Part shown: in pieces, positions 25,237-38,585 of the stretch | How positions within the stretch are numbered: position 1 is the stretch's first letter | Layout of the letters: each line of letters begins with the position of its first letter | Source: Polyangiaceae bacterium | GTDB taxonomy: Bacteria; Myxococcota_A; Polyangia; Polyangiales; Polyangiaceae | Assembly: GCA_023150915.1 (NCBI GenBank) | Contig: JAKLKA010000018.1 | Coordinates: forward strand, 1-64,000 | Length of the DNA stretch: 64,000 nucleotides | Direction of reading: 5' to 3' | The notes under the pieces: model-generated | What the model saw: only the letters and a program-made list of their open reading frames with translations | The model's database searches: none | Told to the model about the DNA's origin: nothing | Translations under genes and position numbers: made by a program

Positions 25237-26667
25237 ATGGAGTCGCTGGTTCCCGGCCCGCTCAAGGTGCTGATCGTCGACGACGAGCCGTCGATCCGCC
25301 AGATGCTCCAGATCGCGCTCAAGCGCGAGGGCTACGACGTGGTCTCGGTCGCGGGCTGTCGGGCGGCCGTCGAGGCCCTTGGCACCAGCCAGCAACCGTT
25401 TCCGGTCGTGCTCACCGACCTGTCGATGCCCGACGGCTCGGGGTTCGACGTGCTGGCTGCCGCCAAGCGTCGCGCCGCGGCGACGGAGGTGATCCTGATC
25501 ACCGCGCATTCCACCGTCGAGAACGCCATCGCGGCGATGCGCGGCGGGGCCTACGACTTCGTCACCAAGCCGTTCCAGCCGGCCGAGATCACGGCGCTGG
25601 TGCAGAAGGCGCTGGAGAAGCACGACCTGACGGCAGAGAACACCCGGCTCCGCGCTCGGATCGAGCGGACCGATGTCGAGGTGCTCGGTCGCAGCCCGGC
25701 GATGCGCGCGGTGCTCGATCTGGTCGACCGCATCGCGGCGACCAAGACCACCGTCCTGATCACGGGGGAGAGCGGCACCGGAAAAGAGCGCGTGGCGCGC
25801 GCCATCCACGACCGGTCGGATCGCCGCTCGGGGCCCTTCTTGGTCGTGAATTGCGGCGCTCTGCCCGAGGCGTTGATGGAGAGCGAGCTGTTCGGCCACG
25901 AGAAGGGCGCGTTCACCGGCGCGCAGACTCGCCACCGCGGACTGTTTCGCGAGGCCGATCGCGGCACCCTCATGCTCGACGAAGTCGGCGAGCTGCCGGC
26001 GTCGCTGCAGGTCAAGCTGCTGCGCGTGCTCCAAGAGCGCAGCGTGCGGGCCGTGGGGGCCACGCAAGAGACGACCATCGACGTGCGCGTGCTGGCCGCC
26101 ACCAACCGCGACATCGAGGCCGAGGTCGCGCGCGGTGCGTTTCGCCAGGACCTGTATTACCGGCTCAACGTGATCCGCGTGGGCCTGCCGCCGCTGCGCG
26201 ACCGGCGGGAAGACATCCCCCTGATGGCCGAGCGATTCCTGCGGCGTTTCTCCTCCGAGATGGGGAAGGACGTCGCGGGCTTCAGCGCCGACGCGCTGCG
26301 CGCCCTCGAGCGCTACTCCTACCCGGGCAACGTGCGCGAGCTCGAGAACGTGATCGAGCGGTCGGTGGCGCTGGCCGGCGCGCGGTCCATCGGCCTTGGC
26401 GACCTGCCGGCGGAGGTGGCCGGCGCTGCCAGCGCGCCGGCGGGTGAGATCCTCACGCTTCCGCCCGAGGGCGCCAACCTCGACGAGCTGCTGAACGAGG
26501 TCGAGCGCCGGCTCTTGCTCTCGGCCATCGACCGCACGGCAGGCAACCGGACCGCCGCCGCCAAGCTCTTGGGCATCACGTTCCGCTCGCTCCGGTACCG
26601 GTTATCGAAGCACGGCCTGGGTGGGGACGACGAAGTGCCCAGCGAGGGCGAGCCCGGTCCGCAATAA
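25237..26667 (+). CDS. pilR: NtrC-family sigma-54 response regulator, PilR-like
   Basis: A 476-residue protein. The receiver domain covers residues 10-120, with phosphorylatable Asp61 (LTDLSMPDGSG). The AAA+ sigma-54 activation domain follows (GESGTGKE Walker A, GAFTGA loop that contacts sigma-54), then a C-terminal Fis-type HTH (GNRTAAAKLLGITFRSLRYRL). The gene lies directly before three prepilin genes, as pilR does in Myxococcus, and so probably activates pilin transcription. No cognate kinase (PilS) is in the window; the usual partner lies next to pilR, so here it must be elsewhere. Start ATG 25237 gives the normal receiver N-terminus. Confidence 0.88.
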   Translation: MESLVPGPLKVLIVDDEPSIRQMLQIALKREGYDVVSVAGCRAAVEALGTSQQPFPVVLTDLSMPDGSGFDVLAAAKRRAAATEVILITAHSTVENAIAAMRGGAYDFVTKPFQPAEITALVQKALEKHDLTAENTRLRARIERTDVEVLGRSPAMRAVLDLVDRIAATKTTVLITGESGTGKERVARAIHDRSDRRSGPFLVVNCGALPEALMESELFGHEKGAFTGAQTRHRGLFREADRGTLMLDEVGELPASLQVKLLRVLQERSVRAVGATQETTIDVRVLAATNRDIEAEVARGAFRQDLYYRLNVIRVGLPPLRDRREDIPLMAERFLRRFSSEMGKDVAGFSADALRALERYSYPGNVRELENVIERSVALAGARSIGLGDLPAEVAGAASAPAGEILTLPPEGANLDELLNEVERRLLLSAIDRTAGNRTAAAKLLGITFRSLRYRLSKHGLGGDDEVPSEGEPGPQ

Positions 26668-26779
26668 CTTGCGAGCCCGACCCCCGGTTGCGTGGCGGAA
26701 AAGGCGGTCGGAAGTCGCCTGGCCGCGCTACAATGCCCTGGCGAGCATGGAACGGAGTGTGCATCCACGGTCGCGATCC

Positions 26780-27331
26780 ATGTCCCGGCGGACGAACTTC
26801 GGGCGTCGCGGCTTCACCCTGGTGGAGCTGATGGTGGTGGTCGTGCTGGTGGGCGTTCTCGCGACCCTGGGCGTCGTGATGTTCCGCCAGTGGGTGTTCA
26901 ACACGCGCTCGGTCGAAGCTTTCGGGATGGTCCAGAGCGTTCGCGTGGCGCAAGAGCGGTGGCGTTCCGAGAACGGCACCTACCTGAACGTCTCGACGGA
27001 CATGACGTCGTGGTACCCCACGGCGACTCCGGGGAAGCGGCTGTATGCGTGGGACTACCCCGCGGGCAACGACTACGCGCGGTGGAGGCTCTTGAGCCCC
27101 ACGGTTTCGGGGCCGGTGCAGTTCGGGTACGTGACCATGGCCGGTGCGCCGTTCAGCGCTCTGCCGGCCGTGGCCACAGCTCAACAGCCCGGCTGGCCAG
27201 CCGCCAACACCATCACCGTGCCGTGGTACGTCATCCAGGCGATGGGGGACACCGACGCCGACGGCGTGAAGTCGTACTACGTTGCCGCCAGCTTCAACGG
27301 CGAGATCCTGCGCGAGAACGAAGGCGAGTGA
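26780..27331 (+). CDS. Type IV prepilin-like protein (pilin 1)
   Basis: A 183-residue protein with leader MSRRTNFGRRG, a class III prepilin cleavage site (RRG then FTLVE) and Glu5 of the mature protein, followed by a hydrophobic helix. After cleavage it would be a pilin or pseudopilin of 172 residues. The C-terminus ends GEILRENEGE, almost the same as pilin 2. A longer leader from ATG 26747 is possible. It is the first of three pilins after the PilR-like gene and 112 bases downstream of it. Confidence 0.85.
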   Translation: MSRRTNFGRRGFTLVELMVVVVLVGVLATLGVVMFRQWVFNTRSVEAFGMVQSVRVAQERWRSENGTYLNVSTDMTSWYPTATPGKRLYAWDYPAGNDYARWRLLSPTVSGPVQFGYVTMAGAPFSALPAVATAQQPGWPAANTITVPWYVIQAMGDTDADGVKSYYVAASFNGEILRENEGE

Positions 27332-27524: not shown

Positions 27525-27540
27525 TGGTACGGAAGCTGCA
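27525..27540 (+). promoter_or_regulatory. Candidate sigma-54 promoter
   Basis: TGGTACGGAAGCTGCA matches the sigma-54 pattern (GG then 10 bases then GC) at GG 27526-27527 and GC 27538-27539. It agrees with the consensus TGGCACG-N4-TTGCA at 10 of 12 defined positions. A PilR-like activator gene lies upstream, which fits. The drawback is that transcription would start near 27551, only four bases before the ATG of pilin 2 at 27555, so it would have to make a nearly leaderless transcript. Confidence 0.35.
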
Positions 27541-27554
27541 ATCCCGGTTGGTCG

Positions 27555-28091
27555 ATGCGCTTCGGGCGTTCACAACGCGGCTTCACCCTCGTCGAGCTGA
27601 TGGTCGTCGTGGCGATCGTCGGCGCGCTGGCGGCGCTCGCGGTGTACGGGATGAACAAGTACGTGCGCGCCAGCAAGGCCGCCGAGCCGATCTACATGAT
27701 CGGCCAGATCAAGACCGCGCAAGAAGCGTGGCGCGAGGAGTTTCACGCCTACTACAACGTGTCGACGGACATCGACACCTACTACCCGGGCCCGCCGATG
27801 GACAAGAAGCGCCATTGGGTCAACACCGCCCACGCGGACTGGGGTCAGTGGCAGCACCTGGGCGTCCAGACTCCGAACCCGGTTCAGTTCGGGTACGCCG
27901 TGGTCGCCGGCAACCCGGGCGGTGTGCCGCCGAACCCTGGAACCTCTGCGACGCTGAACTATCCGAACCCGACCACCGAGCCGTGGTTCGTGGTGAAGTC
28001 GGTCGGCGATTTCAACCTGGACAAGAACTACTCCAAGTTCGTGGGCTCGAGCTTCACACAAGAGATCCTCACGGAAAACGAAGGCGAATGA
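27555..28091 (+). CDS. Type IV prepilin-like protein (pilin 2)
   Basis: A 178-residue protein with a very short leader (MRFGRSQRG, then FTLVELMVVVAIVG), the Glu5 residue and a hydrophobic helix with AALAVYGMNKY. The C-terminal end QEILTENEGE repeats that of pilin 1, and several internal blocks match it (VQFGY, WFVVKSVGD against WYVIQAMGD). Tandem duplication of the two genes is likely. It lacks paired Cys at the C-terminus. It is separated from pilin 1 by a 223-base gap in which I see only the sigma-54-like site. Confidence 0.85.
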   Translation: MRFGRSQRGFTLVELMVVVAIVGALAALAVYGMNKYVRASKAAEPIYMIGQIKTAQEAWREEFHAYYNVSTDIDTYYPGPPMDKKRHWVNTAHADWGQWQHLGVQTPNPVQFGYAVVAGNPGGVPPNPGTSATLNYPNPTTEPWFVVKSVGDFNLDKNYSKFVGSSFTQEILTENEGE

Positions 28092-28205: not shown

Positions 28206-28799
28206 ATGAAGAAGAAACTCAAGAGAGGTTTTACGCTGGTCGAGCTCATGATCGTGGTGGCGATCGTCGGCGTTCTGGCTGCTCTGGCCATCTATGGCGT
28301 TCGTAAGTACATCGCCAACGCGAAGACCGCTGAGGCGCGCAACTCGCTGGGTCAGATCGCCAAGGACGCTTCGAGCGCATACGCGCGCGAAGGTATGTCC
28401 GGCACCATTCTGGCGCTCGGCGGCACGGCCGACATCAACAACCGGCTGTGCGCCACCGCGACCAAGGCGGTTCCGACGGACACTGCCAAGATCCAGGGCA
28501 AGAAGTACCAGTCGAGCCCGGTCGAGTGGTCGGTGGACGGCACCACGGTGCACACCGGCTTCGCGTGCCTGAAGTTCCAGATGACCGACCCGCAGTACTA
28601 CCAGTACAACTACACCCAGGCGGGTGGCACCAACGGTGGCGGCAAGGACGCGGCCTTCACCGCGGAGGCCAAGGGCGACCTGAACGGCGACAAGATCATG
28701 TCGAGCTTCACCCTCACGGGCAAGGTGCAGGAGGGCGCCAATAAGGCGCTCGAGCTCACCATCGCCCCGAACTTCGTCGAGAGCAATCCCGAGGAATAA
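28206..28799 (+). CDS. pilA: Type IV pilin (pilin 3, probable major pilin)
   Basis: A 197-residue protein with leader MKKKLKRG and the site FTLVELMIVVAIVGVLAALAI, closest of the three to classical type IV pilin. AAGGAG lies 7 bases before the ATG, an excellent ribosome binding site. Low Cys content and a Lys/Asn/Gly-rich globular part suggest high expression. A strong hairpin terminator follows directly. I call it the probable major subunit because of the position after PilR, the good RBS and the terminator. The other two may be minor pilins or pseudopilins. Confidence 0.88.
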   Translation: MKKKLKRGFTLVELMIVVAIVGVLAALAIYGVRKYIANAKTAEARNSLGQIAKDASSAYAREGMSGTILALGGTADINNRLCATATKAVPTDTAKIQGKKYQSSPVEWSVDGTTVHTGFACLKFQMTDPQYYQYNYTQAGGTNGGGKDAAFTAEAKGDLNGDKIMSSFTLTGKVQEGANKALELTIAPNFVESNPEE

Positions 28800-28867: not shown

Positions 28868-30985
28868 TCAACGGCGCATGGTGCGCGCGCGCCCGATCCG
28901 CCAGGAGCGATACGCATCGACTTCGGTGTCGACCACCTGGCCTAGACGCATCCCGTCGCTGGGGCGCGCTCGGCGCTCGTGCGGGTCGGCGCAGAGGTCG
29001 AACTCTGCTTGCCAGCCCTGGTCGAGGTCGGCGATCCATTTCTTGCAGCCCTCGACCACCGCTTGCGTGCGGCGATCACTGGACCACTGCTCGGCAAACA
29101 CCCAGGGGCGCGGCAAGGGCGTGCCGTGGCGCAGGCGGCTCACCAGACTCTGGCCGTGCCAGGCGTAGGAATAGGGCAAGCCCAGGAGCTCGACGAGGGT
29201 GGGGACGATGTCGACCAGACCGACCGCGTCGGGCGTTTCGCGTGGCGTTCCGAGCCCGAGCTCGGGGGGTGCACACAACACCAGCGGGACGTGGATCTGC
29301 TCGTCGAACAGGTTGCTTCCATGGGTGATGGTGCCGTGCTCTCCGAACGCTTCGCCGTGATCCGCAGAGAGGATGACCACGGCGCTCGGGGGCAGCTCGC
29401 GCAGGAATCGAGCGAGCTCGCCATCGATGCTGCGCGCCGTTCGCAGATAGCCGGCTCGCCCCTCGCCGCCGCGGTAGGGCATGTGCAGGTCCATCACGTG
29501 GATCCTCAGGTGGAGCGGGCGCTCGCCCGAGGCTTCGCGCATGTAGGCTCGCGCCTGCTGCAGGGTAGTCTCGAGGTTCGGCCACGACGCATCCCCGGTG
29601 TCCGGCAGCGTCCGCCCGAGCTCGTACCCCGTGAGGAAGTACAAGTTCTTCAGCGGAAACGCTGGGAATACCACGTAGGTGGCGAAGCCCGAGGCGGCCA
29701 GCATGGCAGCCAGCGTCGGGGGGGTCGACAGGATCTTCCGCTTCGGATCGGCGTACGCCACCAGCACCTCGTCCCCGTCTTGCACGTGGCGCGGGTACAT
29801 GCCGGTGTGAAGGGAGACCAGAGAGTCCCCCGTTCCGTTCGACTGACTGCGTGCGTTGGTGAAGCGATGGCACTGCTCGGCCCAGGTTCGGGTCTCCGGC
29901 AAGACCGAGGCGTCCTGGAACACATCGTGCCGCAAGCCGTCCACGGTGATCAGGAACACGGCGGGCATCGGAGAGCGGGGAGCCGGCTTGCTTCGCTGGG
30001 CCCGGGGGCTTGCCGGGCCGACCTGCTTCATCGCCTCGTCCAGCGCCCCATCGTGCCCCGTGCAGTTCTGATCCAGGCGGTCGTCGGGCAGGTCGACCAG
30101 CGCGGGGCTCCGCGTGGGGTCGAGGTCGTCACAGTCGAGGCCGAAGGTCGCGGACTCTCCATCGCCGTCCAGATCGGCGACACGCTGGAGCACCACGAGC
30201 GACAGGTTCCCGAACGACGTGTGGTTCGAAGCAAAGCGCCGGAGCGCAGCATGGCGCGTGTCTTGCCACAGGCCCAAGGCCACCCACCCGGCCACGCCGG
30301 CGAACGCCCAGGGTGGAAGCGGTCGCGCCCGCCATTGCCCGTGGGCAACCACAGCCATGAGGCCGAGCGCAGCGAGGGCGCCGGGAAGCGGCTTACCCAT
30401 CACCGTGGCGAGCACGCAGCACGCCGACGGGATGGCGATCAGCCACGCCCATCGGCCTCGCGCATCCGGGCGCGCGGGCGGGCTGAGCTTGCGCCACTTT
30501 GCCCAGACCAGCTCGCCGGCCAAGAGGGGGGGGATCGCCGCGCAGGCGAAGGTCGCACCCGAGTGCCAGTACAGCTGGTACTGACGGCCGATCGTCCGAG
30601 CGAGGATGGCGGTCACGACGCCGTAGACCAGCGCCGCGCGGAGCGCGACGCCGGGCTGGCAAAAGGTCGCGAGCCAGCGGGCAGCGACCGGGGACACATG
30701 CTCTCGGACCCACGGATGTCGCTCGGCGGCGACCAGCGTCAGGTCGAACGCCACCAGGGCTGGGGTCAGCGTCAGAATGCGCGCGGAGCGTGTCCAGAGC
30801 TCCTGGAGCGCGCTGCCGGCATCGGGGAACGACGCGCTTCCGAGCACTGTCCGGATCAGCGTTTCCAGCGCTGCAACGCCCAGCGCCAGCGCCAGGGCCT
30901 GGCTGCCGCTGCGCCGTACGCTTTCCCAAGGCGACTCGCGGGCGGACGCCGGCGGCTCGGACTCGATCGGGCGTTCGTCGTTCAT
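28868..30985 (-). CDS. Membrane-bound alkaline-phosphatase-superfamily (sulfatase-like) enzyme with MopE-type metal motif
   Basis: A 705-residue protein. Residues about 25-245 hold several hydrophobic helices. A cluster at 271-310 (DLDGDGE, LDCDDLDP, DQNCTG) matches the Cys/Asp-rich MopE-type metal-binding motif usually found in secreted proteins. The catalytic domain starts near 340 (VFLITVDG) and has NGTGDSLVSLHTGMYPRH and SADHGEAFGEHG. There is no CxPxR formylglycine motif, so it is not a formylglycine sulfatase. The nucleophile would be Thr or Ser, as in phosphoglycerol transferases. It may transfer a phospho-alcohol onto a surface polymer. It converges with the pilin operon and is divergent from the pilin-like gene by 60 bases. 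Confidence 0.8.
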   Translation of the reverse strand: MNDERPIESEPPASARESPWESVRRSGSQALALALGVAALETLIRTVLGSASFPDAGSALQELWTRSARILTLTPALVAFDLTLVAAERHPWVREHVSPVAARWLATFCQPGVALRAALVYGVVTAILARTIGRQYQLYWHSGATFACAAIPPLLAGELVWAKWRKLSPPARPDARGRWAWLIAIPSACCVLATVMGKPLPGALAALGLMAVVAHGQWRARPLPPWAFAGVAGWVALGLWQDTRHAALRRFASNHTSFGNLSLVVLQRVADLDGDGESATFGLDCDDLDPTRSPALVDLPDDRLDQNCTGHDGALDEAMKQVGPASPRAQRSKPAPRSPMPAVFLITVDGLRHDVFQDASVLPETRTWAEQCHRFTNARSQSNGTGDSLVSLHTGMYPRHVQDGDEVLVAYADPKRKILSTPPTLAAMLAASGFATYVVFPAFPLKNLYFLTGYELGRTLPDTGDASWPNLETTLQQARAYMREASGERPLHLRIHVMDLHMPYRGGEGRAGYLRTARSIDGELARFLRELPPSAVVILSADHGEAFGEHGTITHGSNLFDEQIHVPLVLCAPPELGLGTPRETPDAVGLVDIVPTLVELLGLPYSYAWHGQSLVSRLRHGTPLPRPWVFAEQWSSDRRTQAVVEGCKKWIADLDQGWQAEFDLCADPHERRARPSDGMRLGQVVDTEVDAYRSWRIGRARTMRR

Positions 30986-31045
30986 TGCTACGATGCCGAC
31001 CGCGAGCCTAGCGCAGCGGCGCGACCGCACGCGACACTCTCCCTT

Positions 31046-31567
31046 GTGCCCGGAGGTCGATTCGGGCAGTTTCGAGCCGTCGTGCGCTCCGTTACCCCTT
31101 TGGAGGCCGCCGTTGCGGTCGCGGTCGCGGGTGCGGTCTTGGCCACTGCACTGCCGGCATTCGTTCGAAACCTGCATGCCTCGAAGCTGGTCGAGCCGAT
31201 CGACGGGCTTGGCCGCATCGCGGCCCGCGCCACCGCCCGTGCCGCAGGGCGCCCCGTCGAGTCGGCGTACCCCGAGAGCGTCGGGCTCACTCCGGCCGAG
31301 GTGCCGGCGGGTGTCCGGATCACCGACCCCCCGGGCACCTGGGACCACCCGAGCTGGCGTGCGCTCGAATTCTCGCTCACGGTGCCCCACTCGTTCAGCT
31401 TCGCGTTCGAGAGCGGCGGCAGCCCCGAACAGGCCGCGTTCCGAGCGCGAGCCCACGGGGATCTCGACGGCGACGGGAGTCTCAGCGAGCTCAGCATCTC
31501 GGGGCAGTTTCGCGCGGGGGCCGAGCCCAGCGTCTCGCCCATGGAGCTGTATCGTGAAGTCGAGTGA
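31046..31567 (+). CDS. Divergent pilin-like protein
   Basis: About 173 residues. The N-terminus reads RSVTPLEAAVAVAVAG, aligning with RGFTLVELMVVV of the neighbouring pilins: Glu5 and a hydrophobic helix are kept, but the invariant Gly at -1 is Ser. A globular part with VPHSFSFAFESGG and DLDGDGSLSEL follows, and the C-terminus ends REVE. Whether prepilin peptidase still cleaves it is open. GTG 31046 gives the listed start; GTG 31082 is an alternative. It is the first gene of a short operon with the TPR and spermidine-synthase-like genes and overlaps the TPR gene by 14 bases. Confidence 0.6.
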   Translation: MPGGRFGQFRAVVRSVTPLEAAVAVAVAGAVLATALPAFVRNLHASKLVEPIDGLGRIAARATARAAGRPVESAYPESVGLTPAEVPAGVRITDPPGTWDHPSWRALEFSLTVPHSFSFAFESGGSPEQAAFRARAHGDLDGDGSLSELSISGQFRAGAEPSVSPMELYREVE

Positions 31568-32504
31568 GGCCGGGCGGCGCTCGCGGGGCGGCGGTCGCGC
31601 CGAGCTCGCCGTTGCTTTGTTGGTGATGCTGGGCGCCGCGGCGTTCGTGCGGTTCGCGCGCCCGCGGCTCGCCGGGAAATTTCACCGCCTCAAGGTCGCG
31701 AGTGACGTCTACGTGCTGCCCAGCCCGGACAAGGCGGTGGCGCTCAGCCTGGGCTGGCGTTCGGCCTTGGCCGATCTGCTGTTTGCCCACACGCTCGTTT
31801 CGTACGGGATCCACATCCAAGAGAAGCGGCGGTTCGAGTTCGCCGGAAGCTACCTCGAGACGGTGGTCGAGCTCGATCCGAAGTTCCGCGCGCCGTATCG
31901 CTATTGCGACACCCTGCTGACGCTGGGCGCGTTGAAGCCGCGAGACGAAGACTGGGGGCGCGCCCGGAGGCTGCTCGAGCGGGGTATGCAAGAATACCCC
32001 TTCGACGCCGAGCTCTGGACGCAGGCCGGGCAGTTCATGGCCTACCTGGCGCCCGGTTCGCTGCGCGACGACGCGACGAAGCAAGAGTGGCGCGTGGAAG
32101 GGGCGCGCCGCATGGCACGGGCGTGCGAGCTGATCGGGAACAACGAGAACGTGCCCTTCCACTGCATCACGGCGGCGACGATCTTGTCGAAGGCCGGCGA
32201 GCGCGAAGCGACCATCCAGTTCTTGGAGCGGGTCCTCACGGTCGTCGACAACGACGACGTGCGAAGCATCGCGCTGTCGTACCTGCAGCGGACTGCCGAC
32301 GAGAGCGCACGTGACCGCGTGCAGTGGCGAACGGAACGGTTCATCGATGTCTGGCGGTCCGATCTTTCTTACATCACCAAGGAAGCTTTGCTGGTGGCCG
32401 GGCCGCCCCTGGACCTCGCCGGCTGTGCGGGGCGTGGCCCCGAACCGAAACCGGGGTGCGCCGTCACCTGGCGGTCATGGGGCGAACAGAGCGGGCGCAG
32501 GTAA
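31554..32504 (+). CDS. TPR-like protein with N-terminal membrane anchor
   Basis: A 316-residue protein. Residues about 16-35 form one transmembrane segment (AVALLVMLGAAAFVRFA). The rest is helical with TPR spacing (YLETVVELDPKFRAPYRYCD, then LERGMQEYPFDAELW). GTG 31554 starts it, with GGAG about 10 bases upstream, inside the end of the pilin-like gene. It ends 3 bases before the fused spermidine-synthase-like gene. Such TPR proteins help assemble type IV pili (PilF, Tgl), which would fit the neighbours, but no lipobox is present. The exact role is unknown. Confidence 0.7.
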   Translation: MKSSEAGRRSRGGGRAELAVALLVMLGAAAFVRFARPRLAGKFHRLKVASDVYVLPSPDKAVALSLGWRSALADLLFAHTLVSYGIHIQEKRRFEFAGSYLETVVELDPKFRAPYRYCDTLLTLGALKPRDEDWGRARRLLERGMQEYPFDAELWTQAGQFMAYLAPGSLRDDATKQEWRVEGARRMARACELIGNNENVPFHCITAATILSKAGEREATIQFLERVLTVVDNDDVRSIALSYLQRTADESARDRVQWRTERFIDVWRSDLSYITKEALLVAGPPLDLAGCAGRGPEPKPGCAVTWRSWGEQSGRR

Positions 32505-32507
32505 CTC

Positions 32508-35500
32508 ATGAAGTCCATCACACCTCGGGTCGCAACGCTCCTCTTCGGTTCTGGCCTGGCCGCGTTGGTCTATCAAACCGCTTGGGAGCGGATGCTGCGC
32601 CTGGTATTCGGCGCTTCGACCGCAGCGTCGTCGGCGGTGCTCGCCATCTTCCTCGGGGGCCTCGGGCTCGGCGGCGCGTGGCTCGGTAAGCGCGCCGAAG
32701 CCCACCCCAAGCCGTTGCTCTTGTACGGCAATCTCGAACTCGGGGTTGCACTCTCGGCAGCAGCCACGCCGCTGCTGGTCGACCTCGCCGCTCGGGTGTA
32801 TTGGGGCATGGGCGGCGTTGGCGCGCTGGGCTCGGGCGGTGCCACGGCCATGCGTCTGATCTTGTCGGCCTTGGTGCTCGGGCCGTCGGTCGTGTTGATG
32901 GGCGGGACGCTGCCCGCGGCCGCCCGCGCCGTGGAGAGCGACGAGGATCTGTCGCGCGGCCAGCTGGCGACGCTCTACGCCGCCAACACCGCCGGGGCAG
33001 TGGCCGGTGCCTTGCTGGGCACTTTCGTGCTCTTCGAGTTGCTAGGTATGCGCCTCGCCCTGTGGGGTGCGGTGCTGCTCAACCTCCTGGTGGCGATGGC
33101 CGGGCGGTACAACGGCAGTCGCCTCGACCCCATCGTGGCGGCGCCGGCTACCAGTACCGATACCGACCCCGACCGCCCCGCCGACCCACCCGCCTCGCTG
33201 TCGTCGCAGGCGGTGTACGCCGCTGCCGCCGTGGTGGGGTTCGTATTTCTCGGGCTCGAGATCGTCTGGTACCGGATGCTCGGCCCGATCCTGGGCGGCT
33301 CCAGCTTCACCTTCGGGCTCATCCTGGCGGTGGCTCTGGCTGGCATCGGCATTGGCAGCTTCGCCTACACCCGTCGGAAAGAGACTCAGCCGGCGACGCT
33401 TTCGCTGCTGGCATTCACCGTGGCGATCGAAGCGGGCTGCGCGCTGCTGCCGCTCGCGCTGGGTGACAACGTCGGGATGTTCGCAGCCTACACGCGCCAG
33501 ATGGCGAGCCTGGGTTTTGGGGTCCTGGTTGCCACCTGGGTCTCGATTGCCAGCGTGGTCGTGTTGCCGGCGGCCATCGTGGCGGGCTACCAGTTCCCGG
33601 TGCTCTTCGCCCTGCTCGGAACGGGTCGAGCGCGCGTGGCACGCCAGGTTGGTCTGACCTATGCGTTCAACACCGCTGGGTCCATCATCGGCTCGCTGGC
33701 GGTCGGCTTCGTGCTTCTGCCGCGTTTCGGAGCCGTCGGAGTATGGAAGCTGATGGGAGCGGTGTTGGTCGTGCTCGCCCTCGCGCTGGTCGCGCTCGAC
33801 TACAGGGTCGCGGCCAAGCGGTGGCTGGCTCGAGCGCGCTGGGCCATCGCGACGGCCGTGCTCGCCGGCTGGATGCTCACCGCATCCGGGCCGTCGGCGG
33901 TGACGCGTCATACGCCCATCGGCGCGGGTCGGGTCAACCTGGCCGGCCTCGACAAGAACGGCGTGCGCGAGTGGAATCATCGCACCCGCCTGCGCCTGCT
34001 GTGGGAGCGGGACGGAGTCGAGAACAGCCTCGGCGTTGCTCACGGCAATGGCGTGACCTTTCTGGTCAGTGGCAAGGCTGACGGCGCTGTGTTTGGGGAC
34101 CGCGGGACCCAGGCACTGTCGGGGATGATTCCGGCAATTCTGCACGACAACGTGAGGAGTGTGTTCGTGCTCGGCCTCGGCACCGGAATGACGGCGGGCT
34201 GGCTGTCATCGGTTCCCGGCGTGGAGCGGGTGGACGTCGCCGAGCTCGAGCCCGCGATTCTCGAGGTGGCGCGCGCGGCGTCTCTGGCTAACCAGAACGT
34301 GCTCGAGCGCCCCAACGTCCATATGTATCTGGGTGATGGCCGCGAGTTCTTGCTGACCCACGACCGGAAGTACGACCTTCTGGTCAACGAGCCGAGCAAC
34401 CCCTATCGCGCCGGTGTCGCGTCGCTCTTCACGCACGAATTCTACACTGCCGCGGCCCGGCGCATGAACCCCGGCGGCGTGTTCGCGCAGTGGATCCAAG
34501 GGTACGAGATCGACGTTCAGACCCTGCGGGTTGCGCTGCGCACACTGCGTACGGTGTTTCCGGTAGTCGAAGCCTGGCAGACCCAGGGCGGCGACATGCT
34601 GTTTCTGGCGTCGGCGGAACCGCGAGTGATCGATGTCGACCGCCTCCGTGAGCGCGTGCGCCTCGAGCCGTACCGCACCGTTTTTCCTCGCGCCGGTCTG
34701 GTGGGCGATGCAGAAGGCGTGCTTTCGCGGTTCCTGGCGAGCGATGCGGTCGTGCGCGCCATTGGCGAGGCGGTGCCGGCACCGGTGAACACCGATGACG
34801 AGAACGTGCTCGAATACGCCTTCGCGCGGCACGTGGGCGCGGGAGGCGGTTCGATTCCGGTGCAGCTGGCGACGTTGACGCAGGCCCGCGGCATGGCTCG
34901 ACCGGAGGTGCGCGGTCGCGTCGACTGGACGCGGGTCGACGAGCTGCGGCGCCGGGCATGGCTGATCACCGGGAGCGGCGCCGCGCCGGACTTGCCGTTG
35001 CCCAACGAGAGCGTGCGGGCTCGCGCCAAGGCCTTCGAGGTCGGGTGCGTCGGCGATCTTATCCGGGCCGGGCGCCTCTGGAGTCAGCAGGGCGATTCCG
35101 CGCCGCGCGACGCCATCGAAAAATACGTGCTTGGTCAGATCGCGGCGCAGCGGAAGGAAGAGCGTGCGCTCACGCTGGCGAGCGAGCTCGAAGGGGAAGG
35201 CTTCGTGGCCGAGGCGCGCACCATTCGCGGGCGATACCTGGCAAGCTTCGGGAAGAAGGCGGAGGCCGTCGACGAGCTCCTCTCCGCTGTCGCCGAGCTC
35301 CGGAATTCTGCTCTGCCGCTGTGCGACACTCATCGCCAGGCGGTCGAACTGTTACTGATGATCGGACTCAGCGACCCGGCACTCGCGGCCAAATCCGCAC
35401 GCGGCCTGCTCGAGGGCCCGCTCGCCGTCTACAACTACGAGGACCGGCGGAATGACGTGGCCCAGCAGCTCGCGTTCAAGTCGGCCGACAGCGCGCTGTG

Positions 35501-35819
35501 CGTCGCTGCGTTGGGCCGAAACCTCGAGCTGCCCTGGTGGCAGCTGCCGTTCTTGGCGGCGCGGGCCGAGTGCCTGGAGAAGGCGAACCACCCGCACGCG
35601 GCACGTGCTCGGGCCGAAGTGGCTGAGTGGGTCGGGAACTCGCTGGGCGACATCGGCGCAGGGCTGGTGCTGCCTGCGCCGTCGCTTCCGGCGATGGCCA
35701 ACACTGACGAGTCCCAAGACGCCGGCGTGATCGCTCCCGCCTTGGAGGACGCGGCGACCGGCGCGGCCCCGCCGGCTGCTGACGCCGCGCCGGCAGCTGC
35801 CGACGCTACGCGCGACTGA
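32508..35819 (+). CDS. Polytopic membrane protein fused to a spermidine-synthase-like domain and TPR
   Basis: A 1103-residue protein. The first 440 residues have about twelve hydrophobic segments, as in the family called fused MFS/spermidine synthase. The SAM-fold domain (about 480-800) begins with VLGLGTGMTAGWL near residue 552 and continues with LGDGREFL and NEPSNPY near 627. The Asp that serves as base in true spermidine synthases is not there (DxxDP is NEPSN), so aminopropyl transfer is unlikely. Residues 830-1070 look like TPR helices, and the tail is Ala-rich. It is translated right after the TPR gene. The ends of this gene and of the convergent kinase gene abut with no bases between them. 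Confidence 0.82.
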   Translation: MKSITPRVATLLFGSGLAALVYQTAWERMLRLVFGASTAASSAVLAIFLGGLGLGGAWLGKRAEAHPKPLLLYGNLELGVALSAAATPLLVDLAARVYWGMGGVGALGSGGATAMRLILSALVLGPSVVLMGGTLPAAARAVESDEDLSRGQLATLYAANTAGAVAGALLGTFVLFELLGMRLALWGAVLLNLLVAMAGRYNGSRLDPIVAAPATSTDTDPDRPADPPASLSSQAVYAAAAVVGFVFLGLEIVWYRMLGPILGGSSFTFGLILAVALAGIGIGSFAYTRRKETQPATLSLLAFTVAIEAGCALLPLALGDNVGMFAAYTRQMASLGFGVLVATWVSIASVVVLPAAIVAGYQFPVLFALLGTGRARVARQVGLTYAFNTAGSIIGSLAVGFVLLPRFGAVGVWKLMGAVLVVLALALVALDYRVAAKRWLARARWAIATAVLAGWMLTASGPSAVTRHTPIGAGRVNLAGLDKNGVREWNHRTRLRLLWERDGVENSLGVAHGNGVTFLVSGKADGAVFGDRGTQALSGMIPAILHDNVRSVFVLGLGTGMTAGWLSSVPGVERVDVAELEPAILEVARAASLANQNVLERPNVHMYLGDGREFLLTHDRKYDLLVNEPSNPYRAGVASLFTHEFYTAAARRMNPGGVFAQWIQGYEIDVQTLRVALRTLRTVFPVVEAWQTQGGDMLFLASAEPRVIDVDRLRERVRLEPYRTVFPRAGLVGDAEGVLSRFLASDAVVRAIGEAVPAPVNTDDENVLEYAFARHVGAGGGSIPVQLATLTQARGMARPEVRGRVDWTRVDELRRRAWLITGSGAAPDLPLPNESVRARAKAFEVGCVGDLIRAGRLWSQQGDSAPRDAIEKYVLGQIAAQRKEERALTLASELEGEGFVAEARTIRGRYLASFGKKAEAVDELLSAVAELRNSALPLCDTHRQAVELLLMIGLSDPALAAKSARGLLEGPLAVYNYEDRRNDVAQQLAFKSADSALCVAALGRNLELPWWQLPFLAARAECLEKANHPHAARARAEVAEWVGNSLGDIGAGLVLPAPSLPAMANTDESQDAGVIAPALEDAATGAAPPAADAAPAAADATRD

Positions 35820-38585
35820 TCACGGAAACCGAACTGCCGCCGTCGCGGCGCCGCCCGCCGGGACGTTCACCACGCGGCTCTTCCGGCCGTGCTCGGCGTG
35901 GACGAAGACCACGGTGTGGTTGCCGGCCGGAACGCTGAGCCCGACCTTGGGGGTGGACCCCATCGGCTTGCCGTCGAGGATCACGTTCGAGACCGGGATG
36001 CTGTTGATGTTCAGCGTTCCGGTGCCGGCCGCGGCCACCGGCTTCTCGGTGCCGCCCACCGGCGGCTTGCCGACCTCGGGCTTCTCGGTGCCGCCGGTCG
36101 GCGTCTGCCCACCGGTGGCCACGGGCGCCTCGGGTTTGGGCGCCTTGCCCTTCTCGTACAGGTCGACAGTGAAGGTCTCTTCGGCCTTTCCGTCCTGAAA
36201 GCTGATGTCTTTCTTGAAGTCCTCGAAGCCCGCCTTGGTGGCGACGATGCTCCAGGGCTTGTCGGTGGTGATGTCGATCTTGATCGGCAGCTTCGGGATG
36301 GGGCGGCGCTCGCTGCCGCTGACCAAGAGCACCTTCGCGCCGTCGGCGCCGGTGCCGCCCTTGATCGTCGCCAGGCCCTTCACCACCTTCAGCTTCGGGT
36401 CGATGCTCTGCACCTGACCCTCTTCGATGACGATGCGCTTCTCCCACGCCTCGTAGCGTTCGCCCGCGATCTTGATCACGTGCTCGCCGGCGGTCATGTC
36501 CCGCAGCTCTTGGGGCAGGGGGCCGATCTCTTTCCCGTCGACGAAGAGCTTCACCGCGCCGGCGGTGTCGGCGCTGACCTTGACACCCGTGCCGTCGCTG
36601 GCGCGCGAGAGAGTGACGTTGAGCACGGCATCTTCACCGGTCTCGACCTTCACGCCCTGCTCGGCGGTGGGTTGGAAGCCCGCGGCCGTGACCTTCACCA
36701 TGTGCGTGCCGGTGGCCAGCTCGGTCACGCGGCAGGGGGAGGTGTCGCAGCGCTTGTTCCCGTCCACGAACACCTGCACCGCATCGACGCTCTTGTTCCC
36801 CGGGCCCGCCACGGTGACGACCAGGGTGCCCTTGCGTGGGATGAAGAACACCACCATCGCTGCCACCAGGCTCACCACCAAGAGGCCGGCGACGGCCAGC
36901 AGGATCATGCGGCCCGCACCGCCGGAAGGGGCCGGGGCGGGGTAGGCGGCGGGGACCACCGGGGGCGGCTGTGGAGGCGCGATCGGCATGGGCGCCGACA
37001 TGGGCCCGGGCCCGGGCCCGGGCATGGACGGCATCGACGGCCCGGGCATCGAGGGGCCCGGCATCGACGGTGGAGCGGTGGGCGTGGGGAAGCTGGGCGG
37101 GGCGGCCGTGCCCCCCGAGCTGCCCATCAGCGCGGCGGCGGCGCCCACGCGCATCGAAGGCGGCATGCCGCCACCCGGAGTGGGGGGGCCGCTCTTGAGC
37201 AGTGCCTGCGAGGGAAGCTCGTTCGGCTCCTTGTCGAAGACGGCCGTCTTCTCGTCCTCGTCGTCCCAGTCCATGTCCACCGGAGCCGCTGCGGCCGGTG
37301 GTGGCTTTGGCGGCAGCGGGCCGGGGCTGGGCAGGGTGGCCGGCTTCGACATCGGCGGCAGGCTGGGCGGGGGCAGCCCTCCGCCGGCCCGGCTGGGGGG
37401 CGGCAGTGGCGCTGGCCCACCGCGCAGGCTGGGCGGCGGCAGGTTCTTGCCTGATTGCGGCGCTGGCGTCGGGGGCGGCAAGCCGAGCAGGGTCTTCTTG
37501 TGCCCCGGCGGCGGCGTGGGTGCAGGCAGGGAACGCGGCGCGGGCGCCGGCGTCGATGCCGGACCGCCTCTGCCCGACTTCTTCGCCAGGCCGTCGAACA
37601 CGTCCAGATCAGAACCGCCTTTGTCGCTCATCCCGGTGATCTCCTGCGGACCCGAGGCGGCCTGGGCTGCCTCGGAAGGGAACATCTGGCTCATCAATTG
37701 GGCCAGCCGGCCTGCGTCGCCCGGCGCTGGGAAGCTCCCGGCGAGCGCCTGCAAATCCGCTACTAATTCCGACGCGGTAGCGTACCGCTGGTTTGGGTCT
37801 TTGGCGAGCGCCTTGAGGACGATCGGGTCCACCGCACCGGGCAGCCGGGGGTTCTCGGCGGTGGGGGCTGGCACCGTGTGGGTCCGGATCTTGTTCATCA
37901 CGACGATCTCGTTCGGGCCGTCGTAGAGGCGCTTTCCGGTCAGGGCCTCCCACAGGCAGATGCCGAGGGCGAAGATGTCCGTCCGGCGGTCGACCTCTTT
38001 GCCCCCGACTTGCTCTGGGGCCATGTAGCCGACCTTGCCCTTGATCATGCCCGCCTGGGTACGGGTGATCTTCCCGGCCGCCTTGGCGATGCCGAAGTCG
38101 ATCAGCTTCACCCGCCCGTCGTACGCGATCAGGATGTTCTGCGGGCTCACGTCGCGATGAACGATGTTCAGCGGGCGCCCCTGGCCGTCGCGGCGGTCGT
38201 GGGCGTAGGCGAGCCCAGCGGTGACCTGCGTCAAGATGAAGACCGCCAGCTCCACCGGCAACGTCGACTGCCGGCTGGCGGCCCGGTCGATCAGCGTGCG
38301 CAGGGGCTTGCCGTCCACGTACTCGAGGGCCAAGAAGTGGCCCCCGTCGACCTGGCCGGCGTCCAGCGTGCGCGCGATGTTCGGGTGCTCGAGCAGGGTG
38401 GCGATCCGAGCTTCGTCGTGGAACAGCTCGATGAACTCTTCGTCCTCGGAAACGCTGGGCAAGATGCGCTTCACGGCGACCCGGGCGCCATTCGAACGAT
38501 GGCGCGCGAGGAAAATCTCGGCCATGCCGCCGACGCTGATGCGCTGGATGAGCTCGTAGGGGCCGAAGAGCTGCGTCGGGGGCAA
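35820..38585 (-). CDS. Ser/Thr protein kinase with PEGA repeats
   Basis: A 921-residue PknB-type kinase. The kinase domain (about 8-275) is complete: glycine loop, Lys39, Glu58, HRDVSPQN with Asp145, and DFG at 163-165. A Pro- and Gly-rich linker of about 250 residues follows, with repeated PxPGPxMP motifs. A transmembrane helix lies near 560-582. The outer part has PEGA-like beta repeats (GTLVVTVAGPGNKSVDAVQV, then two or three more copies). A sensor outside the cell and a kinase inside is the common plan in Myxococcota. The substrate is unknown. It is divergent, with its own promoter in the 66-base gap before the secreted protein gene. Confidence 0.92.
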   Translation of the reverse strand: MPPTQLFGPYELIQRISVGGMAEIFLARHRSNGARVAVKRILPSVSEDEEFIELFHDEARIATLLEHPNIARTLDAGQVDGGHFLALEYVDGKPLRTLIDRAASRQSTLPVELAVFILTQVTAGLAYAHDRRDGQGRPLNIVHRDVSPQNILIAYDGRVKLIDFGIAKAAGKITRTQAGMIKGKVGYMAPEQVGGKEVDRRTDIFALGICLWEALTGKRLYDGPNEIVVMNKIRTHTVPAPTAENPRLPGAVDPIVLKALAKDPNQRYATASELVADLQALAGSFPAPGDAGRLAQLMSQMFPSEAAQAASGPQEITGMSDKGGSDLDVFDGLAKKSGRGGPASTPAPAPRSLPAPTPPPGHKKTLLGLPPPTPAPQSGKNLPPPSLRGGPAPLPPPSRAGGGLPPPSLPPMSKPATLPSPGPLPPKPPPAAAAPVDMDWDDEDEKTAVFDKEPNELPSQALLKSGPPTPGGGMPPSMRVGAAAALMGSSGGTAAPPSFPTPTAPPSMPGPSMPGPSMPSMPGPGPGPMSAPMPIAPPQPPPVVPAAYPAPAPSGGAGRMILLAVAGLLVVSLVAAMVVFFIPRKGTLVVTVAGPGNKSVDAVQVFVDGNKRCDTSPCRVTELATGTHMVKVTAAGFQPTAEQGVKVETGEDAVLNVTLSRASDGTGVKVSADTAGAVKLFVDGKEIGPLPQELRDMTAGEHVIKIAGERYEAWEKRIVIEEGQVQSIDPKLKVVKGLATIKGGTGADGAKVLLVSGSERRPIPKLPIKIDITTDKPWSIVATKAGFEDFKKDISFQDGKAEETFTVDLYEKGKAPKPEAPVATGGQTPTGGTEKPEVGKPPVGGTEKPVAAAGTGTLNINSIPVSNVILDGKPMGSTPKVGLSVPAGNHTVVFVHAEHGRKSRVVNVPAGGAATAAVRFP

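Follow-up and report, generated by a model that had tools for sequence, protein, structure and literature searches.

The window, i.e. the whole stretch of 64,000 nucleotides that was analysed, belongs to a genome of 8.0 Mb (G000). Judged from gene order, the three genes studied here are the distal part of a pilR-pilin (type IVa pilus) locus, and the original prediction of a surface-assembly module was thus right in kind. The locus starts on the plus strand with a PilR-type sigma-54 response regulator (25237..26667; Pfam Response_reg, Sigma54_activat and HTH_8), followed on the same strand by three canonical prepilins, written here with a slash between positions -1 and +1: prepilin A (26780..27331, RRG/FTLVE), recognised by reading frame, motif and conserved order; prepilin B (27555..28091, QRG/FTLVE; Pfam N_methyl 1.1e-8); and the PilA-like prepilin C (28206..28799, KRG/FTLVE; Pfam N_methyl 5.9e-9), whose 17 PDB matches are type IV pilins. 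A sulfatase-type gene with a MopE-like motif stands on the minus strand (28868-31456) between the pilins and gene 1 of G000; the same holds for G002 but not for G001. Then follow, on the plus strand, gene 1 (31082..31567), encoding a pilin-like protein, gene 2 (31554..32504), encoding a TPR protein, and gene 3 (32508..35819), encoding a fused membrane and spermidine-synthase-like protein of 1103 aa. The pilus locus is followed by a minus-strand gene for a PEGA-domain Ser/Thr protein kinase (35820-38585), with a counterpart in many relatives.

The three genes are joined as had been noticed: gene 2 starts with a GTG at 31554, 14 bases within gene 1, which ends at 31567, and three bases separate the end of gene 2 at 32504 from the ATG of gene 3 at 32508. 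According to tblastn hit coordinates the 14-base overlap is also found in both other species of the genus. When 37 stretches were screened by tblastn with nine window proteins, the arrangement common to relatives proved to be pilR - pilins - gene 1 - gene 2; one of these stretches, L127, is a second region of G000 that has no TPR locus. PilR-like frames were found at 54 of 79 TPR loci of Polyangiales, many of which are truncated by contig ends. Upstream of gene 1 no sigma-54 site was found, and the 14 sigma-54-like matches across the whole window are not above chance (10.8 expected). Two sigma-54-like sites with two mismatches each occur shortly 5' of pilin A (26748-26763) and pilin B (27525-27540).

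Genes 1 and 2 each have a match in 37 of 39 genomes, own genome included, hence their conservation amounts to more than chance. Gene 3 adjoins them in four of 37 genomes only (G000, G001, G002 and, at a contig edge, G008), which confines the triplet, as far as seen, to the genus of the window and G008. The proposed unit of three therefore holds for genes 1 and 2, which are conserved together, and not for the rare triplet; rare adjacency in relatives, named beforehand as evidence against the unit, was found for the triplet and not for the pair.

The TPR protein and its gene neighbourhood

Gene 2 encodes an N-terminal hydrophobic segment, a TPR-like region and a C-terminal Cys pair, the last being present in the 12 closer members. 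Across the phylum 190 of 235 genomes gave a match, own genome included, and named homologues are found in records of Polyangiaceae, Myxococcales and the like, including Sorangium and Polyangium, for which reason the order is called Polyangiales here. For comparison of neighbourhoods 79 loci of Polyangiales were collected, consisting of the window, 56 loci of the genome set and 22 named loci that were assigned by titles and similarity; 14 named loci with contigs matching genomes already in the set were excluded as duplicates. These were compared with 80 TPR loci of other Myxococcota. An ABC ATPase was scored when a frame with a Walker pattern was present on the same strand within 2.5 kb downstream of the TPR gene. 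This was the case for 40 of the 80 loci outside Polyangiales and for none of the 79 within. The 40 loci include 18 that also have a pilin upstream and 20 with no pilin recognised on the stretch, hence TPR and ABC genes do not go together with pilins at every locus. The order in L158 is pilS - pilR - pilin - pilin - TPR - ABC ATPase - ABC2 permease, and in L171 it is pilin - pilin - TPR - ABC ATPase - permease-like gene - A24 prepilin peptidase, the permease being recognised by alignment only.

This arrangement resembles the pilA-G-H-I operon of M. xanthus, for which the available parts of two reports describe a role in pilin translocation (PMC3546991, PMC3724824). Among the PilA matches listed the best identity was 72% and M. 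xanthus was not recognised among the genomes searched; we read gene 2 as a likely counterpart of PilG by its gene position rather than by the M. xanthus PilG sequence. The probable likeness to PilG (MXAN_5782) of the PilGHI exporter is one of gene order: gene 2 follows the pilins, and its counterparts in some other lineages precede genes for an ABC ATPase and a permease, whereas in the Polyangiales genomes searched for them the ABC genes are found elsewhere. Loss of the PilHI transporter in Polyangiales was considered and rejected: G000 has a strong PilH match and a PilI match, both unlinked to the locus. Since these unlinked matches exist, the PilH and PilI genes are dispersed rather than lost, which agrees with the scattered pilus genes that the available part of PMC6060248 reports for Sorangiineae. 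The PilI-like permease of G000 (C217:71542-72471) is matched by two adjacent profile pieces in what is seemingly one frame, as if it carried an insertion; a similar two-piece match occurs in G001, G022, G026, G028 and G036.

The spermidine-synthase-like membrane protein

Gene 3 scores 112.2 bits with the NCBIfam model MFS_SpdSyn (NF037959), above its cut-off of 40, and matches Pfam Spermine_synth (PF01564) at 1.5e-11. Hydropathy analysis identified 11 hydrophobic segments. In the structural model (pLDDT 84.2) these are complemented by a synthase-fold domain at about 490-745, limits that are a reading of the model, and by a C-terminal helical part of about 300 residues. The best Foldseek rows are aminopropyltransferases (1uir, 3.8e-10, target TM-score about 0.7), by which the modelled domain has the spermidine-synthase fold. 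The Asp pair DxxD is catalytic in spermidine synthase. Residues 622-633 of gene 3 read YDLLVNEPSNPY, and in the alignment with T. maritima spermidine synthase (1inl) IDSTDP is matched by NEPSNP, such that the two Asp residues correspond to Glu628 and Asn631. The aligned sequence thus lacks the active-site Asp pair of an aminopropyltransferase, and polyamine-synthase equivalog cut-offs are far from reached, for example with 106.8 of 472 bits. The original prediction had noted the missing Asp in NEPSN and proposed a methyltransferase-fold domain with a purpose other than spermidine; both aligned Asp residues prove to be replaced, and the fold together with the missed cut-offs fits the latter proposal. 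The leading N of the motif is peculiar to the window protein, the eight rows closest to it having SEPSNPY, and the nucleoside-site residues G558, G560, D610 and R612 are invariant in 20 rows. Gene 3 shares with fused MFS/spermidine synthases (NF037959) and soluble spermidine synthases the membrane region combined with a synthase-fold domain; it differs from them by the lack of the Asp pair, the extra C-terminal helical part and its position beside pilus genes.

This position could have a trivial cause. A common MFS-SpdSyn gene may have landed behind pilG in an ancestor of the genus, where it would be expressed by promoter read-through and share no function with its neighbours, a reading to which we grant appreciable, if minority, weight. 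It agrees with the restriction of the triplet to four of 37 genomes, where four of the stretches from the 33 other genomes (L108, L111, L113 and L114) are uninformative since their contig stops with gene 2 or shortly behind it, and with the presence of homologues elsewhere in the genomes, such as the close homologues L065-L069. However, gene 3-type genes are found within about 10 kb of gene 2 at 12 of 159 loci. Eight of these are among the 37 loci of the own genome and 36 relatives, and the same eight were recovered by tblastn, against 0.26 expected. The expectation was derived from 126 matching segments in 293.9 Mb; the segments include fragments, which raises it, and in some genomes only part of the candidates was scored, which lowers it, hence it may be up to about twofold low. 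Five of the eight loci form a single clade, so that they represent three to four independent cases. The remaining four cases came from 122 further loci and likewise argue against a mere passenger.

A tree of 28 gene 3-type rows places the SEPSNPY clade of the window apart from a clade with SQPSHPW, in which two rows, L072 and L076, have no pilin next to them on the stretch seen. When 90 genomes of another class were screened with a SQPSHPW profile, 14 places scored at least 795 bits, the next ones having 575 bits and less. Seven of the 14 are divergently oriented at 333-977 bases from a pilA match (in G124, from a TPR match), which also speaks against a passenger, with the proviso that two of the seven, G061 and G124, were seeds of the profile. 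Three of the others are a pair on the contig of the pilA/TPR matches, at 3.9 and 6.6 kb, and one that is far away; of the last four, two have pilA/TPR matches on other contigs only and two have nothing to compare. SQPSHPW genes divergent beside a pilA or TPR gene, such as L169:3674-7117 and L171:3221-6562, come from several families of that other class. Based on these sequence comparisons we take the gene 3 protein type to be recurrently associated with pilA/pilG, the window representing one instance.

A pilin family with a decayed cleavage site

Gene 1 had been placed at 31046, but its start probably lies 36 bases further downstream. G002 (L092), the closest relative, has an in-frame TGA between the positions that match 31046 and 31082, and the only usual start left is a GTG matching 31082 of the window. 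Because this stop separates the two candidate starts, gene 1 probably starts at the GTG at 31082 and encodes a protein of 161 aa, MRSVTPLE... Its N-terminus, (M)RS/VTPLEAAVAVAVAGAVLATALPAF, has Ser at -1 and Glu at +5. Pfam gave no N_methyl match for gene 1, and a TetR_C_14 match (E 0.97) was dismissed as noise.

Identification as a pilin depends on the predicted structure and on family members. The AlphaFold2 model (pLDDT 91.4) has a long N-terminal helix and a beta-sheet head, and with these the predicted protein has a pilin fold. The best VIA-align rows are PAK pilin, S. sanguinis PilA and FimA; the alignment with PAK pilin covers 125 residues (Z 6.2, rmsd 7.8), which is middling by itself, and starts by pairing residue 4 of gene 1 with residue 1 of mature PAK pilin, and two further pilins give Z 5.5 and 5.4. 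With Foldseek the model had no match of E 0.001 or less, and the top 50 rows listed contained no pilin. At the sequence level gene 1 weakly resembles canonical pilin C, which is encoded at the same locus (E 5.6e-6).

A profile was built on 24 members of the family, hereafter pilin4, and scored against a profile of the canonical neighbour pilin C. This identified pilin4 in 70 of the 79 TPR loci of Polyangiales, directly 5' of the TPR gene in 51 and 3' in 10, and in none of the 80 TPR loci of other Myxococcota, where the Polyangiales-trained profile could miss remote forms. The cleavage site could be placed for 67 of the 70 members, the exceptions being L095, L184 and L238, and rows L109, L180 and L209 are uncertainly aligned there. 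Position -1 is Ser in 25, Gly in 17, Arg in 11, Pro in 4, Ala in 3 and Gln in 3 members, with Thr, Asn, Glu and Lys once each. Gly is therefore absent from 50 of 67, and G, A or S is present in 45. Position +5 is Glu in 52, Gln in 11 and another residue in 4, D/E together accounting for 53.

With type IVa pilins, minor ones included (PilA, FimU and the PilV/W/X/E type), the family shares the N-terminal hydrophobic helix, in most members Glu+5, and the pilin-shaped model, and pilin4 might be an ordinary minor pilin. The prepilin peptidase of the lineage would then tolerate Ser and other residues at -1 as well as a three-residue leader, and the protein would be cleaved and built into the pilus. 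The pilin fold and the mostly kept Glu+5 are as this would have it, and so are the three canonical neighbours. In the part of the source available, the PilFind rule permits G, A or S at -1 (PMC3244431), and its core motif is satisfied by S-VTPL-E of the window and by 36 of 67 members. The original prediction was correct about Ser in place of Gly; as a notable feature the substitution is weaker alone, given this rule, and gains from the decay of the site across relatives. The window's own gene 1 protein may be cleaved, as its Ser fits the rule.

Across the family, however, the picture differs from that of type IVa pilins. Residues R, P, Q, T, N, E or K occupy -1 in 22 of the 67 members, while the three other pilins at the window locus keep Gly. 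Many members also have no more than a stub leader: when every ATG, GTG and TTG before the site was counted, excluding the window and the contig-edge row L233, a leader of more than five residues was impossible in 30 of 49 members that lack Gly and in none of 16 that have it (Fisher p 6e-6, a value that ignores kinship). Parsimony on a TPR tree of 62 rows (midpoint root; L109 and L180 unlabelled, three short rows dropped) requires a minimum of three changes of the -1 Gly state, of which one, a loss of Gly, is placed in the ancestor of a clade of 36 rows (SH-aLRT 97) whose -1 residues are S, T, P, A, R, Q, N or K. A single match to the A24 N-terminal domain of prepilin peptidase was obtained in G000. 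On this evidence we find it rather doubtful that pilin4 is an ordinary minor pilin; as read from the sequences it is a pilin paralogue with a decayed prepilin-peptidase site.

A proposed role in pilus assembly

The explanation that we consider best, and hold with about even confidence, combines a membrane-resident, peptidase-independent pilin that acts with PilG and an accessory gene 3 product that does not serve spermidine synthesis. The TPR protein would be the counterpart of PilG, the accessory factor of an ABC exporter that in M. xanthus is encoded straight after pilA. The pilin-like protein would be a pilin paralogue that has become independent of prepilin peptidase and is made with the stub leader MRS. 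According to the available part of PMC7248040, membrane insertion of a pilin leaves its N-terminal peptide inside and its C-terminal domain outside. Lacking a cleavable leader, the gene 1 product would remain in the membrane, fixed in the inner membrane and exposing its globular domain to the periplasm. Since the coding sequences overlap, matched production of genes 1 and 2 is suggested, and the pilin-like protein may act with PilG, its expression being coupled through that overlap; in the export of pilins and the assembly of the pilus it would be a pilin that does not polymerise or one that initiates. The available part of PMC3724824 describes PilGHI as indispensable to pilin translocation in M. 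xanthus, hence the simplest role would be that of a fixed pilin partner of PilG that delivers or starts pilins. The gene 3 protein would be an accessory, probably still binding a SAM-type nucleoside and not making spermidine; such proteins would have come to pilA/pilG loci on more than one occasion, and at the membrane they may modify or tune either pilins or the machine.

Further observations count against this explanation, besides the fit of the window's Ser to the PilFind rule and the TPR-ABC loci where no pilin was recognised. Glu+5, kept in most pilin4 members, is what one would expect if the protein packed into a filament; and in 33 of 37 genomes, of which four have the contig ending there, gene 3 was not seen next to genes 1 and 2, its close homologues L065-L069 being located elsewhere. 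A more specific version, in which the synthase-fold domain modifies the pilin-like protein, for instance at its free cytosolic N-terminus in replacement of the methylation by prepilin peptidase, would suit the retained nucleoside-site features and a SAM-type membrane protein beside a pilin that is probably not processed by the peptidase, and is improbable given the leader-less pilin4 in many genomes that have no gene 3 alongside.

Pilins are regarded as becoming assembly-competent through prepilin peptidase cleavage. Loss of the site from a conserved protein of pilin fold, in a lineage with a peptidase and with canonical pilins at the same locus, would offer a natural separation of membrane insertion, docking and polymerisation. 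Among the literature matches listed there was no account of leader-less pilins or of pilus-linked spermidine-synthase-like proteins. We tentatively suggest, as a possibility that is more doubtful than the explanation given above, that Polyangiales have a class of natural leader-less pilins which start nearly at the N-terminus of a mature pilin and, as permanent pilins of the inner membrane, together with PilG receive, cap or nucleate the pilus with no need of the peptidase, and that pilus-linked membrane proteins of the spermidine-synthase-like type are an unrecognised type IV pilus accessory across Myxococcota. The putative link with PilG would give a handle on PilGHI, and the recurrent neighbourhood of a synthase-fold membrane protein and pilA may point to an accessory function for a large, poorly characterised family.
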